In this document: positions 4,015-13,682 of the stretch, one piece after another
How the letters are laid out: every line of letters begins with the position of its first letter
Numbering within the stretch: the stretch's first letter is position 1
Assembly: GCA_013003715.1 (NCBI GenBank)
Contig: JABDIN010000050.1
Coordinates: 1-64,000, forward strand
Reading direction: 5' to 3'
DNA: 64,000 nucleotides
Source of the DNA: Desulfobacteraceae bacterium
Lineage (GTDB): Bacteria; Desulfobacterota; Desulfobacteria; Desulfobacterales; Desulfosarcinaceae
Program-made: the position numbers and the translations under genes
The notes under the pieces: model-generated
The model's database searches: none
What the model saw: only the letters and a program-made list of their open reading frames with translations
Told to the model about the DNA's origin: nothing

Positions 4015-4743
4015 ATGAAAAAGGCCGTCATATCCGATGTACATGGGAATCTTGAAGCTTTTCAGCAGGTGTTGGCGGATATCGACCGCCATAACATAAG
4101 AGAAATCTTCTGTTTGGGCGATGGTATCGGTTACGGCCCTGATCCGGAAGCCGTCATCCAGACGATGGTAACGCGAAAGATCAGAATGGTGGTGGGTAAC
4201 CATGAATTGGCGGCAATCGATCCGGCATATCGCCGCCGACTGAATCCGGATGCATTCAAGGCCCTGATGCTGAATCTCGCCCGGTTATCGGCACCGTCCA
4301 TGCGATTCATCGAAAATCTTCCGCTGTTTATCACCAAAGGCAATTGCCGTTATGTGCACGGATTTCCACCGGACAGATCCAGCACCTATTTGTTTCAGGT
4401 TACACCGAAAAAGCTGGCGCAATCCATGTCGGCTCTTCCGGAGCGATATTGTTTTATCGGTCATACCCACGAACTGAAACTGGTGTCTTACGAAAAGAAC
4501 GGTATAACTCGCATGAATCTGACGGAAGATACGATACCTCTCAAACCGGAATCAAAATACATTTTTAATGTGGGCAGTGTCGGCCAACCCAGAGACGGGG
4601 ACAGCAAAGCGAAATATGCCATCTTCGATGATTCGGCGAATACGATGGTCATAAAATTCATCGACTATGATATCGGGAAGACGGTCAGGAAGATGGAGGC
4701 CGGCGGATACCCGCAAAACCTCTCACGACGACTCTGGTGTTAG
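4015..4743 (+). CDS. Calcineurin-like metallophosphoesterase
   Basis: A 242-residue soluble protein with all the metal-binding blocks of the calcineurin-like fold: DVH at residues 8-10, GD at 35-36, GNHE at 61-64, His115 and GHTH at 149-152. It belongs with the short YfcE/Pfam12850-type phosphodiesterases or phosphatases, which use two divalent metals. The gene ends 13 bp before the start of a Ser/Thr kinase in the same direction, suggesting one transcript. A role as the phosphatase opposing that kinase is attractive because related enzymes can act on phosphoproteins, but this is inference; cyclic or nucleoside phosphodiester substrates are also possible. Confidence 0.85.
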   Translation: MKKAVISDVHGNLEAFQQVLADIDRHNIREIFCLGDGIGYGPDPEAVIQTMVTRKIRMVVGNHELAAIDPAYRRRLNPDAFKALMLNLARLSAPSMRFIENLPLFITKGNCRYVHGFPPDRSSTYLFQVTPKKLAQSMSALPERYCFIGHTHELKLVSYEKNGITRMNLTEDTIPLKPESKYIFNVGSVGQPRDGDSKAKYAIFDDSANTMVIKFIDYDIGKTVRKMEAGGYPQNLSRRLWC

Positions 4744-4756
4744 GACGGATCAATCC

Positions 4757-6166
4757 ATGCGGACAATCGGAAAATACATTGTCAGAGGTCTTTTAGGCCG
4801 GGGCGGTATGGGAAAGGTGTATAAGGCGGAACACCCCATTCTCGGGAAAATGGTCGCGCTGAAATGCCTTGAACCTCCGGAAATTCTGACCGAATTAGTG
4901 GGGAAAAAACGGCTTGAGGAGCGCTTCATGGCGGAGTCCGTCACCATGGCCGGATTAAACCACCCCAATATTGTGGACGTTCTCGATATCGAAACAACTG
5001 ATGAGAACATTTTTTATGTCATGGATTATTATTGCAACAATTTGGGGATCATGATCGGAGAAACCTACCGAACTGAAACGCCATCCAGACCTCTCGGCGT
5101 TGACAAAACCATTCACTACGCCACCCAGACACTCAAAGGCTTGAACCGATTACACCATGCCGGTATCATTCACAGAGATATCAAGCCGTATAATATGATG
5201 GTCACGGATCAGGATGAGGTAAAAATATGTGACTTCGGATTATCCATATATCGCGGTGAGACCACAGCGGGACCGGCGAATCTGAACATGGGATCGCCTT
5301 ACTATGCGGCTCCCGAGCAGGAACAAAAGACGGCCGATGCCACCTTTTCCACGGATATATACTCACTTGGGGTCATGATCCACCGAATGTTGACCGGTAT
5401 GCTGCCGGGCGGTCGGAACAAAGATAAAAACGGCTCCTTGCTAAACCTTATCCATCCGGACCTCGATGATTCATGGGATGACTTCTTATTAAAAGCAATA
5501 GCCACCGAACCGGATAGACGATTTACGGACGCAAATGAAATGCTGAACCGGTTAATGGCACTGAAACATCAATGGGATGAGAAAAAAGAGGCCTTATGCC
5601 GATTGAATCCGGCGCCCTCTGCATCTCCTGACACGGCAACAGGGGAACAAAAGCGTCGCAACCGTCAACCAAGAAGGACGCCTGTTAAAATCAATACCAA
5701 AATGGCACCCGCCGTATTCCCGGTTGATTCGCTCTGGCGACCGAAATCATACCACGAATCTGAATTTCATAAGGTGAACGATAAGGTAATTCGTGATTGC
5801 AGTACAGGTCTGTTTTGGCAGATTGCCGGATCATCCTATCCAGTGTCATTCGGGGATGCCCGGGAGTACATTGCGGATTTGAATATCTCGAATTTCGGGA
5901 ATCTTAACCATTGGCGCCTGCCCACCGTGGATGAGTTGTTGTCGATCATGATGCCGGTGCCCCTGGGTCGCAACCTCTGCCTGGCGTCGGTATTCGATCA
6001 TCTGCAGCAATGGTTATGGAGCATTGACCGGAAATCATTCACCGCCGCCTGGTATGCCAGCATGGATCTGGGATTCATTCACTGGCAGGATTTCACGGCT
6101 CGTTATTATGTAAAAGGTGTCTGCACCGGATCAGACGAGCCGGACAGGGTGTCAGGATCGGTTTGA
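4757..6166 (+). CDS. Ser/Thr protein kinase fused to a DUF1566 (Lcl C-terminal) domain
   Basis: Hanks-type (PknB-like) protein kinase of 469 residues. Residues ~7-265 form the kinase domain, with a glycine loop GRGGMGKVY at 14-22, VALK with Lys36, the catalytic loop HRDIKPYN at 139-146 and DFG at 159-161, so it should be active. A basic linker follows (~285-325). Residues ~327-460 form a DUF1566/Lcl domain recognisable by CSTGLFWQ and HWRLPTVDELLSI. No membrane segment separates the two parts, so the protein appears cytoplasmic. I chose the ATG at 4757 because MRTIGKYIVRG is the normal kinase start; the frame is open further upstream to 4667 but overlaps the preceding gene. The kinase-to-DUF1566 fusion is unusual. 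Confidence 0.88.
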   Translation: MRTIGKYIVRGLLGRGGMGKVYKAEHPILGKMVALKCLEPPEILTELVGKKRLEERFMAESVTMAGLNHPNIVDVLDIETTDENIFYVMDYYCNNLGIMIGETYRTETPSRPLGVDKTIHYATQTLKGLNRLHHAGIIHRDIKPYNMMVTDQDEVKICDFGLSIYRGETTAGPANLNMGSPYYAAPEQEQKTADATFSTDIYSLGVMIHRMLTGMLPGGRNKDKNGSLLNLIHPDLDDSWDDFLLKAIATEPDRRFTDANEMLNRLMALKHQWDEKKEALCRLNPAPSASPDTATGEQKRRNRQPRRTPVKINTKMAPAVFPVDSLWRPKSYHESEFHKVNDKVIRDCSTGLFWQIAGSSYPVSFGDAREYIADLNISNFGNLNHWRLPTVDELLSIMMPVPLGRNLCLASVFDHLQQWLWSIDRKSFTAAWYASMDLGFIHWQDFTARYYVKGVCTGSDEPDRVSGSV

Positions 6167-8570: not shown

Positions 8571-11500
8571 ATGAAAAATCGCGGCGACAGCAGGGAAACG
8601 GCTACCGGTACTATTGAACCGGTGTACGATCGTGTCACAAAAGATGAATGGGGTCTTGAACTGGAAGGGCTTTCCGTCCATCATGAACTTATAAGTGGAT
8701 TCATCATACATGTCATCATTCGAGGTTCGGTGCACCAAGACCATGTACCAATCATCTTTGAAAAATACGACCTCCTTTACCGCGCACTGAAAAGCAAAAA
8801 AGGTCCTCATTATTTTATACGCAATATATCAGAAGTTTCCGCAATCGGCATGCAAGCACGCCGCCGGTATTTTAAACATGCGAAAAAGTGGTTTGCGGGG
8901 CACCCCACGGTTAAGGGTGTCATTTTCTACGGTGCCAACAGATGGAACCGCGCCGCCTTGAATTTATCTCGTCATTTTCTACCGTTCGATCTGCAGATCG
9001 CTGAAAACCTGGACGCATCCTTTAATCTGATCCCCGAACTAAACGCTGAAAATGCGCCTGAACCCATCATCGAATCACCTGATCATAAAGGGAGAAGAGG
9101 CCCCGACAACCTTAGCGGTTACAATGAGGAAATAATATCCTGGCTTTCCAGGGTGAACTGGACGCTTGGCGGGGATAAAAAAAGCAGCCCTACGGAACCG
9201 GGGACGGAACATCCATTTTTTCCGGTATTCGAAGTCATTGATATCGTGCACCGGGATTCCCTGGAGTTGCTGAAAGCGGAAAAACATACGAATATCGTCA
9301 ATAAAACGCTTTATGGTATTGCCAATGCCGTTAATACCACCTTTGATTTGGACGAGTTATATTCATCAATTCACAGGTCCCTGGGCGACCTTCTGGACGC
9401 ATCGAATTTTTATATCGCCATATACGATCAAGGCGAGGATCGAATTTCCTTCCCTTTTGATTCCGATCTTGTGGATGAAAAAATCGAGGAAATTCATAAT
9501 GCCAGCAAAAGCAGCAGCCTGACGGCAGAGGTAATCCTGACCGGTGCCCCCCGGATTTTCTCACGTCAGGATATGATAGACCGGGCTATAAAACAGGGGT
9601 TGCAGCAGATTGGGAAACCATCGGAAATATGGATTGGTGTTCCCCTCAGAACCAATGAGGGCATCATCGGGGCAATCGTCATTCAGAGTTATGTTGACCC
9701 GAATCGATTTGACTATCGTGATGTGGAAATCCTTAGCTCCGTATCAGACCAGATCGCAATGGCTATCGAGAGAAAACGGACCCAGCAGTCCCTGTTGATC
9801 AGTGAATCCAGATACCGGAATCTGGTTGAAAACATCAACGATGTCATTTTTTCCACCAATGCCGACGGTGTTCTGACTTATGTAAGTCCTGCGGCTGAAC
9901 GTGTGCTGGGCCGTAACCAAAGCTATTTTATCGGAAAAACCGGCGCATTTGCAGACAAATCGTCTTGTGGCACTTCAGAAAGTTTTGACGCCATCATCTA
10001 TCCGGAAGATCGTCAGATAAATTACGATCACGTCAACAACGCAATCAACAATTTGTCGAATTACAGTATCGAGTACCGGATCGTTAAGCGTGACGGCAGG
10101 ATCCGCTGGGTTCATGAAAAGGGATATGTGGTTGAAGAGAAGGAGGACCATCGCCGAATTGAAGGGATTATCTCCGATATCCATGAACGAAAACATGCAT
10201 CTGAGATTAACAAAACCCTTTACAGCATATCCAATGCGGTGAATGTCACCTCAAACCTGGATGAACTCTATAAATCCATACATCAATCATTGGGCCGCAT
10301 CATTGATGTCACCAATTTCTACATCGCGCTATATGATCACGAAAAACACAGCATCACTTTCCCCTATTTCGTCGATGAAATAGACGATCACTATATAAAA
10401 AGCTTAGACCTGAACGAGACAAATACGCTCACCGGTGAAGTAATCGCCCTACAAAAACCGCTTTTTATAACCAAAGAAGACCTTATTAACCGGTCTAAAC
10501 ATCGGAAAATCATTGGCACACCGTCCGAAATATGGATTGGTGTCCCACTGATGCTCAAATCCGAGGTCATCGGAGTGATGTCGCTCCAGAATTACACCAA
10601 TGCCCGGCAATATGATCGAAGCGATATTGAAGTATTGACTGCTGTTTCGGACCAGGTGGCCATTGCCATCGAAAGAAAGCAGTCGGAAAAAGCACTGCAG
10701 GAAAACGACAGGCAGATCAAATCCCTTTCCCAGCAAACCGAGCAATTCAGCCTGGTGGCGGCATCCATAATTTCCCTGAAACACGAACAGGAGATTTTCG
10801 ACCGGATAAGCCGGGCTATTGTCGAGCACTCCGATTATCATCGGGTATTGATATCCTTGTTTACAGATTTTTCGCCATACCGGGAAATCGTCAGTTTCCG
10901 AAATTTGCCCCCGGAGAAGGTCGCCGAAATACGAGGCATTGAAATTCCGCCGAATTATTATCAGAATCTCTTCGAACATGGGACCAAACTCGGGCAATTT
11001 TCATATTATATCCCACACGACAAAAAGGGTGAACTCTTTGAGAAGGTGGCCATTCAGGGGGATGGGTCAATTCCCGAAGACGATGACGCATGGCATCCCG
11101 ATGACAATCTGCTCGTCGGTATGAAGGATAAGCAGGGGAACTTGATTGGTGTTATATCCGTTGATGAATCAAAATCCGGCCAGCGGCCGTCGGATGAGAC
11201 CGTGCGACCATTGGAGATATTTTCCAGCCTGATCTCTCAGATAATTCATTTGAAAAAAGCACAGGATGAAGTTGTAAACACTAAAGCGAAGGTGGAGGCG
11301 GCAAACACCGAACTCATCAGTGTCAACACCCGACTCGGCAATGCCATTCAACGGGCGAATGCCATGACCCGTAGGGCTGAAACGGCAACTAAGGCGAAAA
11401 GCGACTTTCTGGCTAACATGAGCCATGAAATCCGCACCCCCATGAATGCCATAGTGGGATTCGCGGAATTGGTCCTGAAAACCACATTAACCGGAAAACA

Positions 11501-13682
11501 ACGCGAATATTTGATGACCATCCAGAATTCAAGCCATTCACTTCTGCATATCCTCAATGATATCCTCGATCTCTCTAAAATCGAGGCCGGGAAGCTTGAA
11601 ATCGAAAATATTGATTTCAAGCCTCACATGGTAATGGACAACTTGTCGGACATGTTTTCCGATCAGGCTGAAAACAAGGGTATTGAGCTGATGATATCCA
11701 TCTCTTCCAGCATCCCCATGGCACTTCGGGGTGATCCGCTGAGACTCCAGCAGGTGTTGGTGAACCTCACCGGCAATGCCATCAAATTCACGGATCATGG
11801 TGAAATCGTCATTCAAGGGGCGGCTGTATGGCAGAATGATGAGAGAATCATGCTCGAATTCTCGGTATCCGACACCGGCATCGGTATTTCACCCGAAATA
11901 CGCCCCACCCTCTTTGAGTCATTCGAACAGGCAGATGGCTCCACCACCCGGAAGTTCGGCGGCACCGGCCTGGGGTTGGCCATTACAAAACGGCTGGTGG
12001 AAATGATGAAGGGGGAAATCTGGGTTGAAAGTGTGGCAGGTGGCGGTAGCAAGTTTTATTTTACAGCAGAATTGGAAGTACCGTCACAGCAGGCGGACAA
12101 ACATCAAATTGTTCCCCAATCCTTGTATGAAATGAACGTCCTGCTGGTGGATGACAGTGCGGCTTTCCGCCATATCATGCGGGAAACCCTGGAGGCGTTT
12201 TCTTTCAACGTCACAACTGCGCATTCAGGGGAGGAAGCCCTTCGTATTTTGAGTGCTGAGGATACCAAAATACGATTTCAATTGATTTTCATGGACCTGA
12301 AAATGCCGGGGATGGATGGTTTGGAAGCCACACGACAGATTCGGTTGAATAAAGACTTAGGTGATATCCCCATCATCATGTTAACCGGATACGATCAGGA
12401 TGGTTTCTTCCGGGAGGCTCAACGCGCGGGGGTTGACACTTACCTCAGAAAACCCCTAAAACAATCAATCCTGTTTGATACCATCATGGACATTTTGCAG
12501 AAGCGTGACGGTAAAACGATTGTAACGCCAAACATACATGATCAAAATGATGAAGACATACAGGCATCATTACAGGGAATCAGAATCCTATTGGTTGAAG
12601 ATAATCCCATCAATCAGAGAGTTGCCCAGGAAATATTAATATTGGCCGGTACCGAAGTTACAACCGTGGAAAATGGCAGCCAGGCAATAGAGGCTGTAAA
12701 ATCGACTGATTTTGATGCCGTGCTGATGGACATACAAATGCCGGAAATGGATGGTTACGAGGCCACAAAACGGATACGCCAGCGCGAAAAATCACGGCGC
12801 TCTGTGATTAAAGAAAGTCCGGAATCTGACGAAAAAGCGAATGCAGATATACCCGAACGTTTACCGATCATTGCGATGACAGCCCATGCAATGAAGGGAG
12901 ACCGCGAGAAATGCCTCAGCGCCGGGATGGATGACTACATAACAAAGCCAATTAAAATAAAGACCCTATTCGCCATGCTGGTAAAACGTATTCACCTTAA
13001 CCAAAGCGATCTATCACCAATGGATAGGCCAAACCCAAGCGGAAAGTTAAGGCCGGTTGATCAACCACCGACACCGGTTACCGATATTATCGATATCGAT
13101 TCAGCCCTTGCAAGGCTCGGCGGTAATTTTGATCTCTTTTCCATTCTGGTGAAAGAGTTTGTAAAAGATTATGGGAATTCAGCCGTAAACATCAGAAATC
13201 TCCTGCGAAACAAAGACCTGATCCATGCCAGGCAATTGACACATTCCGTAAAGGGAGTGGCGGCGAACTTGTCCGCTATCCGATTGTTTGATACGGCAAT
13301 GGCGCTTGAGACGGCCTTGGCTGAGAATGCAGACGACCGATTCCCTGATTTGATCGATTCGCTGGAAACCGGTTTTCGGAAACTGCAGGACTGGCTCATA
13401 TCCGATGACTGCGAGCTTGCCGGTGGGGAGATATCCCGGGACCATACGGATCGTGATGGCATCAATATCGTTTCACAGTTGAAAAAGCTGTTCGACCATA
13501 TTGATGACAATGATCTGGAGGCCTTGGCGTGCTGGGAACAATTGAAACCCCGGATCGACCCAGGGCGATTCAAAACACAAATAAAAAAAATCGATGAATG
13601 TCTTAATTCATTGGATTTCGACAAAATGAAAGATTACGTCCACGCCATTGTCGAACATTACACCGTCCGGGTCACCAAATGA
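8571..13682 (+). CDS. Large multi-GAF hybrid sensor histidine kinase with two receivers and Hpt domain
   Basis: 1703-residue soluble phosphorelay protein. Rough order: N-terminal domain I do not recognise (1-~160); GAF1 (~254-400); PAS (~408-541, starting [16 protein letters not shown]); GAF2 (~551-700), very similar to GAF1; GAF3 (~724-895); coiled coil (~895-945); HisKA with phospho-acceptor His952 in [12 protein letters not shown]; HATPase (~1055-1170, with GGTGLGLAI); receiver 1 with Asp1242 ([10 protein letters not shown]); receiver 2 with Asp1387 ([10 protein letters not shown]); and an Hpt domain with His1558 (HSVKG). All relay residues are present, so a His-Asp-His chain can run within one chain. 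No membrane segment is apparent, so it senses cytoplasmic signals. No output regulator gene is adjacent. The ribosome binding site (ATAAGG) is weak. Confidence 0.92.

Follow-up and report, generated by a model that had tools for sequence, protein, structure and literature searches.

A metallophosphoesterase (MPE) of the calcineurin superfamily and a Ser/Thr kinase with a C-terminal Lcl_C (DUF1566) domain are encoded side by side at positions 4,015 to 6,166 of a 64,000-nucleotide stretch of contig JABDIN010000050.1 (the whole stretch is referred to here as the window) from a Desulfobacteraceae bacterium. The kinase-MPE pair is a real, old unit in Desulfobacterota, in which the kinase is nearly always accompanied by the MPE but the converse is untrue. 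We see roughly even chances that the two genes constitute a co-inherited, probably co-translated kinase-phosphatase phospho-switch. The locus comprises the following features.

4015..4743, + strand: MPE, calcineurin-superfamily metallophosphoesterase ("A-type"), 242 aa; ATG at 4015, stop at 4741-4743
4742..4745, + strand: AGGA, possible ribosome-binding site of the kinase, picked by eye; overlaps the MPE stop codon
4757..6166, + strand: predicted soluble Hanks-type Ser/Thr kinase with C-terminal Lcl_C/DUF1566, 469 aa; ATG at 4757, stop ends at 6166
4781..5533, + strand: protein kinase domain, residues 9-259; Pfam PF00069, 144.8 bits; closest fold M. tuberculosis PknB
5618..5653, + strand: low-confidence linker between kinase and Lcl_C, residues 288-299; pLDDT <50
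5786..6121, + strand: Lcl_C (DUF1566) domain, residues 344-455; Pfam PF07603, 51.2 bits (cut-off 34.9)

Loci encoding a kinase with Lcl_C were merged from 60 close genomes, a scan of species genomes (the best 80 of at least 581 candidates) and 297 genomes of the phylum, for which the profile searches were limited to 5 and 9 scored candidates in each genome. The 88 merged loci were reduced to 82 by dropping copies at least 97% identical, and L129, a kinase lacking Lcl_C with a PP2C-like open reading frame (ORF) nearby by eye, was excluded from the family count. Family members occur under the record names of at least the Desulfobacteraceae, Desulfovibrionaceae, Desulfobulbaceae, Desulfocapsaceae and Desulfonatronovibrionaceae, or their genera. 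In 68 of the 82 loci the MPE immediately precedes the kinase in the same orientation, as a separate gene in 67 and as a fused remnant in one. Three other kinases (L035, L037, L121) start no more than 377 bp from a contig end, and without them the pairing amounts to 68/79. The remaining 11 loci, which are unlinked, have at least 840 bp of upstream sequence, and 10 of their 11 genomes hold this MPE elsewhere (in G039, about 20 kb from the kinase and on the opposite strand).

The association is also evident at the level of whole genomes. Profile searches set full-length kinase-Lcl proteins apart from generic kinases. MPEs of the window type (A-type) score at least 244 bits, to which the truncated fused copy of G088 was added, and B-type MPEs, a broader group, score at most 212 bits. 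When the kinase and MPE lists of the 297 phylum genomes were sorted by hand into a co-occurrence table, 24 genomes had the kinase and an A-type MPE, none the kinase alone, eight the A-type MPE alone and 265 neither (Fisher p 8e-29, genomes being counted as independent despite their relatedness). A split kinase (G203) and the fused remnant (G088) are counted among the 24. A full-length relative of the kinase-Lcl protein (E <=3.2e-96) is present in 20 of the 60 close genomes, the window's own included. The MPE was found in 19 of these 20, the exception being G018, whose kinase is cut by a contig end or start, and 21 of the 40 close genomes with any MPE match have no kinase. Over the whole-genome searches the kinase occurs without the MPE only in two metagenome-assembled genomes (MAGs), G018 and G359. 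The lack of conservation that an earlier note on this DNA had named as refuting its proposal is clearly contradicted, since the pair recurs in several Desulfobacterota families, far beyond chance. Chance or an annotation artefact as its origin was ruled out by this conservation.

Two loci of the phylum sample contain altered genes. In G088 a 456-aa frame (L241:1133-2503) runs from MPE residues 1-170 straight into the kinase C-lobe and Lcl_C, with no Pkinase match; we take this fused frame (L188/L241) for an in-frame deletion product, either a deletion scar or an assembly error. The kinase gene at G203:C3:472073-473393 is broken across two frames and adjoins an intact MPE.

The pairing was compared with that of other kinases and other MPEs. 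None of 34 generic kinases from other lineages (L131-L164) has this MPE in the stretch examined, nor does any of six generic kinases of the phylum (L189-L194) within 1.5 kb on each side; the idea that any kinase draws this MPE was therefore ruled out (0/40). Among 40 loci with B-type or related MPEs, from this and other phyla, 36 have no kinase domain in the stretch and four (L274, L281, L301, L304) have one 0.7-3.1 kb away, never as the next gene. That any MPE of this fold draws a kinase was mostly rejected on this count (0/40). At L301:4172-7146 and L304:2278-4953 one small gene (185 and 193 aa, respectively) separates the B-type MPE from an ORF with a kinase domain, on the same strand in L301 and on the opposite one in L304; the small genes have a similar start and look acetyltransferase-like by eye.

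The surroundings of the pair are less constant. Downstream in the window lie a convergent gene for an Mrp/NBP35 ATPase and a gene for a DUF134 protein, and upstream a divergent gene for a peptide-binding protein. Of the 39 pair loci whose flanks were long enough, the window included, seven have Mrp nearby, two DUF134 and two the peptide-binding protein, and PilD, Lon and TsaB are near in 9/39. Since the flanks vary while the pair stays, it is chiefly the pair that is kept, and a bigger conserved operon was rejected as the cause of the linkage. A promoter and terminator scan gave matches no more numerous than in shuffled sequence. Further along, the window encodes a 1703-aa hybrid sensor kinase (8571-13682) with PAS, GAF and HisKA domains, three receiver-domain stretches and Hpt.

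As to the unlinked kinases, PP2C as a substitute for the MPE was seen in none of 10 neighbouring ORFs scanned, which come from seven of the 11 loci (L031, L038, L095, L101, L102, L120, L172). At L031 (G039, 10734-13549) the next ORF after the kinase encodes 748 aa and has no match in Pfam; beyond it, at 2.3 kb from the kinase on its downstream side, lies a calcineurin-like phosphoesterase of another type (13028-13549, 173 aa). A weak MPE match (52 bits) lies 4.8 kb off on the opposite strand in L093.

The two genes have travelled together. In quick trees of 63 intact pairs, kinase and MPE patristic distances correlate at 0.72, the maximum of 2000 permutations being 0.19, and this correlation owes part to species descent; L118, L128, L130 and L187 were left out before the comparison. 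Of 21 MPE splits with support of at least 90, 19 are also supported in the kinase tree, and two kinase splits conflict with two MPE splits. The MPE stop codon and the kinase ATG are separated by 13 bp on the same strand in the window, stop and start codons overlap in 14 of the 67 separate pairs, and 60 of the 67 lie within 60 bp (nearest start codon chosen).

Linkage has nevertheless changed over time. The label "paired" changes 24 times on the MPE tree, a quick tree with many open forks, versus a shuffled mean of 34.1, so the pairing was either lost or gained on several occasions. Six weak or short MPEs (L079-L084) were left out before the tree; at L079 and L080 kinases lie near broken MPE copies. 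Solo MPEs share a lon/pilD context with some paired ones: at L051, L052, L058, L064 and L069 a kinase-less MPE stands directly after pilD (prepilin peptidase) and beside a divergent lon, with tsaB present at the first four and the contig ending at L069. A PilB-like ATPase occurs near L054 and L055, and a link of the MPE to pili is possible.

These observations bear on a reading in which the MPE would be an older housekeeping enzyme and the kinase a later neighbour, the two being joined by shared inheritance and operon expression without a direct enzymatic link. We regard it as improbable. The lon/pilD context common to those five solo loci and to paired MPEs speaks for it, as do kinase remnants directly downstream of intact MPEs (L067 and L248) and the G359 kinase for which no MPE was found (L086). 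It accords poorly with a pair that stays as flanks change and whose genes overlap, with the restriction of MPE-less kinases to G018 and G359 among genomes searched whole, and with the fact that the MPE adjoins kinase-FGE fusions too.

The latter arrangement, with A-type MPEs beside kinase-FGE-sulfatase fusions, was found in three loci: the MPE lies between two kinase-FGE genes in L071 and after one in L073 and L244; the L073 kinase was placed here since it clusters with those of L071. The FGE-partner label changes twice on the MPE tree, one change being forced by well-supported branches. FGE and DUF1566 are described as CLec-fold families (PMC10907252, PMC6642488), and hence the recurring partner of the MPE is a kinase with a lectin-like tail. 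We think that this reuse tells more than any other part of the result.

The MPE matches Metallophos_2 (57.8 bits, cut-off 27) and Metallophos (40.2 bits, cut-off 21.5) in Pfam, and its metal-site residues D8, H10, D36, N62, H115, H150 and H152 are invariant in 67/67 paired copies (window included). The Asp-x-His, GD, GNH, His and GHxH motifs, together with the fold, place it in the calcineurin superfamily. The earlier note had described an MPE with its metal motifs ending 13 bp before a kinase-DUF1566 gene, and Pfam and the conserved residues agree with it in coordinates, motifs and gap. Its term "calcineurin-like" holds for the superfamily but not for the calcineurin/PPP subfamily, as GDxVDRG is lacking and the nearest named fold is SapH. 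PPP-type protein Ser/Thr phosphatases are recognized by the motifs GDxHG, GDxVDRG and GNHE; the second motif of the MPE reads GDGIGYG and the other two SDVHGN and GNHE, which sets it outside that type. The NCBIfam protein-serine/threonine phosphatase models PRK11439 and PRK09968, presumably PrpA and PrpB, score 20.1 and 15.6 bits on the MPE (cut-offs 326 and 332), and no PP2C family is among the Pfam matches to the MPE or the kinase (E 0.1). Judged by its motifs, the MPE does not count as a classical protein phosphatase, belonging to the calcineurin superfamily outside the calcineurin/PPP subfamily.

The predicted MPE model (pLDDT 93.5) aligns best with 3rqz (Z 32.0, 32% identity), then with two unnamed archaeal proteins (2gju, 1nnw), then with SapH (Z 25.4) and, at about 16, with PPP phosphatases. 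SapH (3qfm/3qfn) is the nearest named relative (Foldseek E 3.7e-16; profile E 1.5e-16; 24% identity). Such kinship brings in a second reading, possible but doubtful to us, in which the MPE would hydrolyse nucleotides or dinucleotides (Ap4A-type) or act as a phosphodiesterase, producing or removing a small molecule that the kinase would sense via Lcl_C or the ATP site; with equal reserve, the pair would then unite a signal-turnover enzyme and a signal-reading kinase, not a kinase and its phosphatase. It is favored by SapH, the closest named structure, being an Ap4A hydrolase and phosphodiesterase, by weak NCBIfam matches to phosphodiesterase and Ap4A hydrolase models, all under cut-off, and by the retention of the MPE without the kinase. 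However, identity to SapH is just 24%, nucleotide specificity is unreadable from sequence, and a general nucleotide role leaves unexplained why direct adjacency is confined to the A-type (0/40 B-type or related).

The clearest residue differences between the types are E64 (60/67 A-type; Asp in 39/39 B-type) and K200 (67/67; mainly S or A in B-type), so that GNHE in 60/67 paired A-type MPEs corresponds to GNHD in 39/39 B-type ones. Further differences concern P42, V47, P119, R121 (mostly Ser in A-types) and L154. One of the 40 B-type loci (<=140 bits) was dropped from this comparison. Five residues were compared in solo A-type MPEs, with six distant rows as outgroup, and E64, P119, R121, L154 and K200 are largely shared by them.

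For the kinase, the Met at 4757 was taken as the start because it is common to 18 of the 19 alignment rows reaching that position; in the ORF listing the frame extends to an upstream ATG at 4667. The VAIK Lys, C-helix Glu, HRD, DFG and APE motifs of Hanks-type kinases are present, and the model superposes on PknB (5u94; VIA-align Z 29.4, root-mean-square deviation 2.7, 245 residues aligned). K36, E60, H139, D141, K143, N146, D159 and G161 are kept in 79-81 of 82 rows, the others being gaps, and P186 and E187 (APE) in 80/82. HRD is found in 76/82, its Arg differing in five, and the DFG Phe is replaced by Leu in six; a Ser or Thr occupies position 180 in 80/82. A redox switch through conserved cysteines was considered and dropped (C281 in 78/82 relatives but C408 in 71/82).

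No membrane segment was detected in the kinase by hydropathy (highest 19-residue mean 1.41), and none of the 82 relatives reaches 1.6. The earlier note's view of a cytoplasmic kinase without a membrane segment is in line with this profile, and hydropathy, the one line of evidence here, suggests a soluble, cytoplasmic protein. The PASTA-kinase model NF033483 scores 197.3 bits (cut-off 450) over residues 5-308 only; no PASTA repeat was matched in the kinase by Pfam and no transmembrane segment was seen by hydropathy.

As a DUF1566 domain, Lcl_C is expected to have a C-type-lectin-like fold. The domain was matched in 19/19 aligned family members (E 0.001, window included); among solved chains its sole near match is a weak profile hit to HbP1 (8q4e, E 0.12), and the Foldseek (PDB, viral) and VIA-align lists for the whole kinase model were taken up by the kinase domain. 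The tail also raises the prospect, very unlikely in our estimation, of a module for phage defence or conflict in which Lcl_C would serve for recognition, like the CLec domains of kinases targeted by diversity-generating retroelements (DGRs). In cyanobacteria such kinase-CLec proteins are among the targets of DGRs (PMC7517822), and PADLOC PD-T4-6 models match the kinase at 193.9 bits. Yet all of the 25 PADLOC matches listed, out of 35, fall on the kinase domain (query residues 2-300), a generic similarity; Lcl_C aligns in register among relatives and no hypervariable stretch was seen in it; the single RVT_1 match of the genome is on another contig (C94), with none on the kinase's own, in a search that covered the reverse transcriptase and not its template; and long co-inheritance is unlike most defence genes.

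In the phospho-switch that we favor, the soluble kinase, mostly of the RD type and with a Ser/Thr in the P+1 loop, would phosphorylate itself and its partners. Its Lcl_C tail would bind a ligand or partner, or oligomerize the kinase and thereby favor trans-autophosphorylation, and the MPE would strip phosphate from the kinase and/or its substrates, in the role that PP2C has in classical pairs. The genes, their active-site residues, the conserved pairing and the co-inheritance are observed, and solubility is predicted; the MPE's action on proteins, the function of the tail and the nature of the signal are what we infer. DUF1566 is plausible as a sensor or docking module. Support for the switch comes from the pairing, the gene overlaps, the co-inheritance amid differing flanks, the recurrence of this MPE type beside kinase-FGE-sulfatase fusions, the intact active-site residues, GNHE and the PPP alignment at Z ~16. 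A kinase so rarely seen without the MPE is what one would expect if it did harm when its eraser is missing, and the same asymmetry also fits the alternative in which the MPE controls a nucleotide that the kinase reads.

Several observations weigh against the switch. Kinase and MPE are unlinked in 11 loci, and for the kinase of L086 (MAG G359) no MPE was found, either in its 840 bp upstream or elsewhere in the genome. The A-type MPE is without kinase in 8 of the 32 genomes of the phylum sample that have it, and this persistence means that it has a role beyond the kinase or outlives it. E64 and K200, being alike in solo copies, are no marker of a kinase-specific version, and B-type MPEs are not wholly kinase-free, as L301 and L304 have a kinase one small gene apart. 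SapH aligns at a Z well above that of the PPP phosphatases, and GDGIGYG stands where those have GDxVDRG. We know of no phosphoprotein activity for an A-type MPE.

A wider proposal, which we put forward tentatively and rate somewhat below even, is that the SapH/3rqz-type MPE would be the dedicated, translationally coupled protein phosphatase of a Desulfobacterota-wide family of soluble kinases whose sensor tails are lectin-like (DUF1566 or, in separate cases, FGE), a bacterial phosphoprotein-phosphatase class apart from PP2C and PPP, with the kinase switched by ligand-driven assembly of the tail. A near-constant partner that is neither PPM nor PPP offers a testable case, either of a new bacterial phosphoprotein-phosphatase class or of a kinase tied to nucleotide-signal turnover. 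The phylum in which the pair recurs is central to sulfate reduction, and DUF1566, described from adhesins and DGR targets in the papers cited here, would gain a cytoplasmic signalling setting. No paper on this kinase-MPE combination was found in the open-licence PMC literature; a kinase beside a phosphatase, usually PP2C (PMC6213207), and kinase-CLec fusions (PMC7517822) are already on record.

According to a review of bacterial Hanks kinases, the gene of such a kinase adjoins that of a metal-dependent phosphatase and is often co-transcribed with it; the usual dedicated partner is PPM (PP2C), and no families with this phosphatase activity are given other than PPM and PPP (PMC6213207). The pair resembles PrkC/PrpC, PknB/PstP and Stk1/Stp1 in that a Hanks-type kinase, with PknB as closest fold, adjoins a phosphatase. 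It differs in having a calcineurin-superfamily phosphoesterase of another fold in place of PP2C, and a soluble kinase that bears Lcl_C where the classical pairs have extracellular PASTA repeats. The contrast with PP2C pairs drawn by the earlier note is sound, as the genome that contains the window also carries, on contig C42, a separate cluster of PP2C and kinase genes; this cluster (L238) encodes an FHA protein, PP2C, a trypsin-like protease and a PEGA-domain kinase, FHA and protease being assigned by eye.

On the MPE side, 3rqz (Sphaerobacter thermophilus) and the streptococcal SapH have the same compact fold over the full MPE length, a comparison by fold only; 3rqz is titled without function and SapH as an asymmetric Ap4A hydrolase/phosphodiesterase. 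The PPP family (PP5, calcineurin, PP2A; bacterial PrpA/PrpB) has the superfamily, the metal site and GNHE in common with the MPE and differs by GDxVDRG.

Regarding the tail, the cyanobacterial DGR-target proteins combine an N-terminal Ser/Thr kinase with a C-terminal CLec-like domain (PMC7517822), and DUF1566 has been described as a CLec-fold domain that is frequent in DGR targets (PMC6642488). The domain order is the same as in the kinase described here, which differs by its constant MPE partner. The Legionella Lcl protein is an extracellular trimeric adhesin whose C-terminal domain takes part in trimerization, and its authors suggest carbohydrate recognition and/or trimer formation (PMC11162425). 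This domain is of the same Lcl_C/DUF1566 family, here carried by a soluble kinase, and because it forms trimers in Legionella, tail-driven assembly of the kinase is a concrete option.

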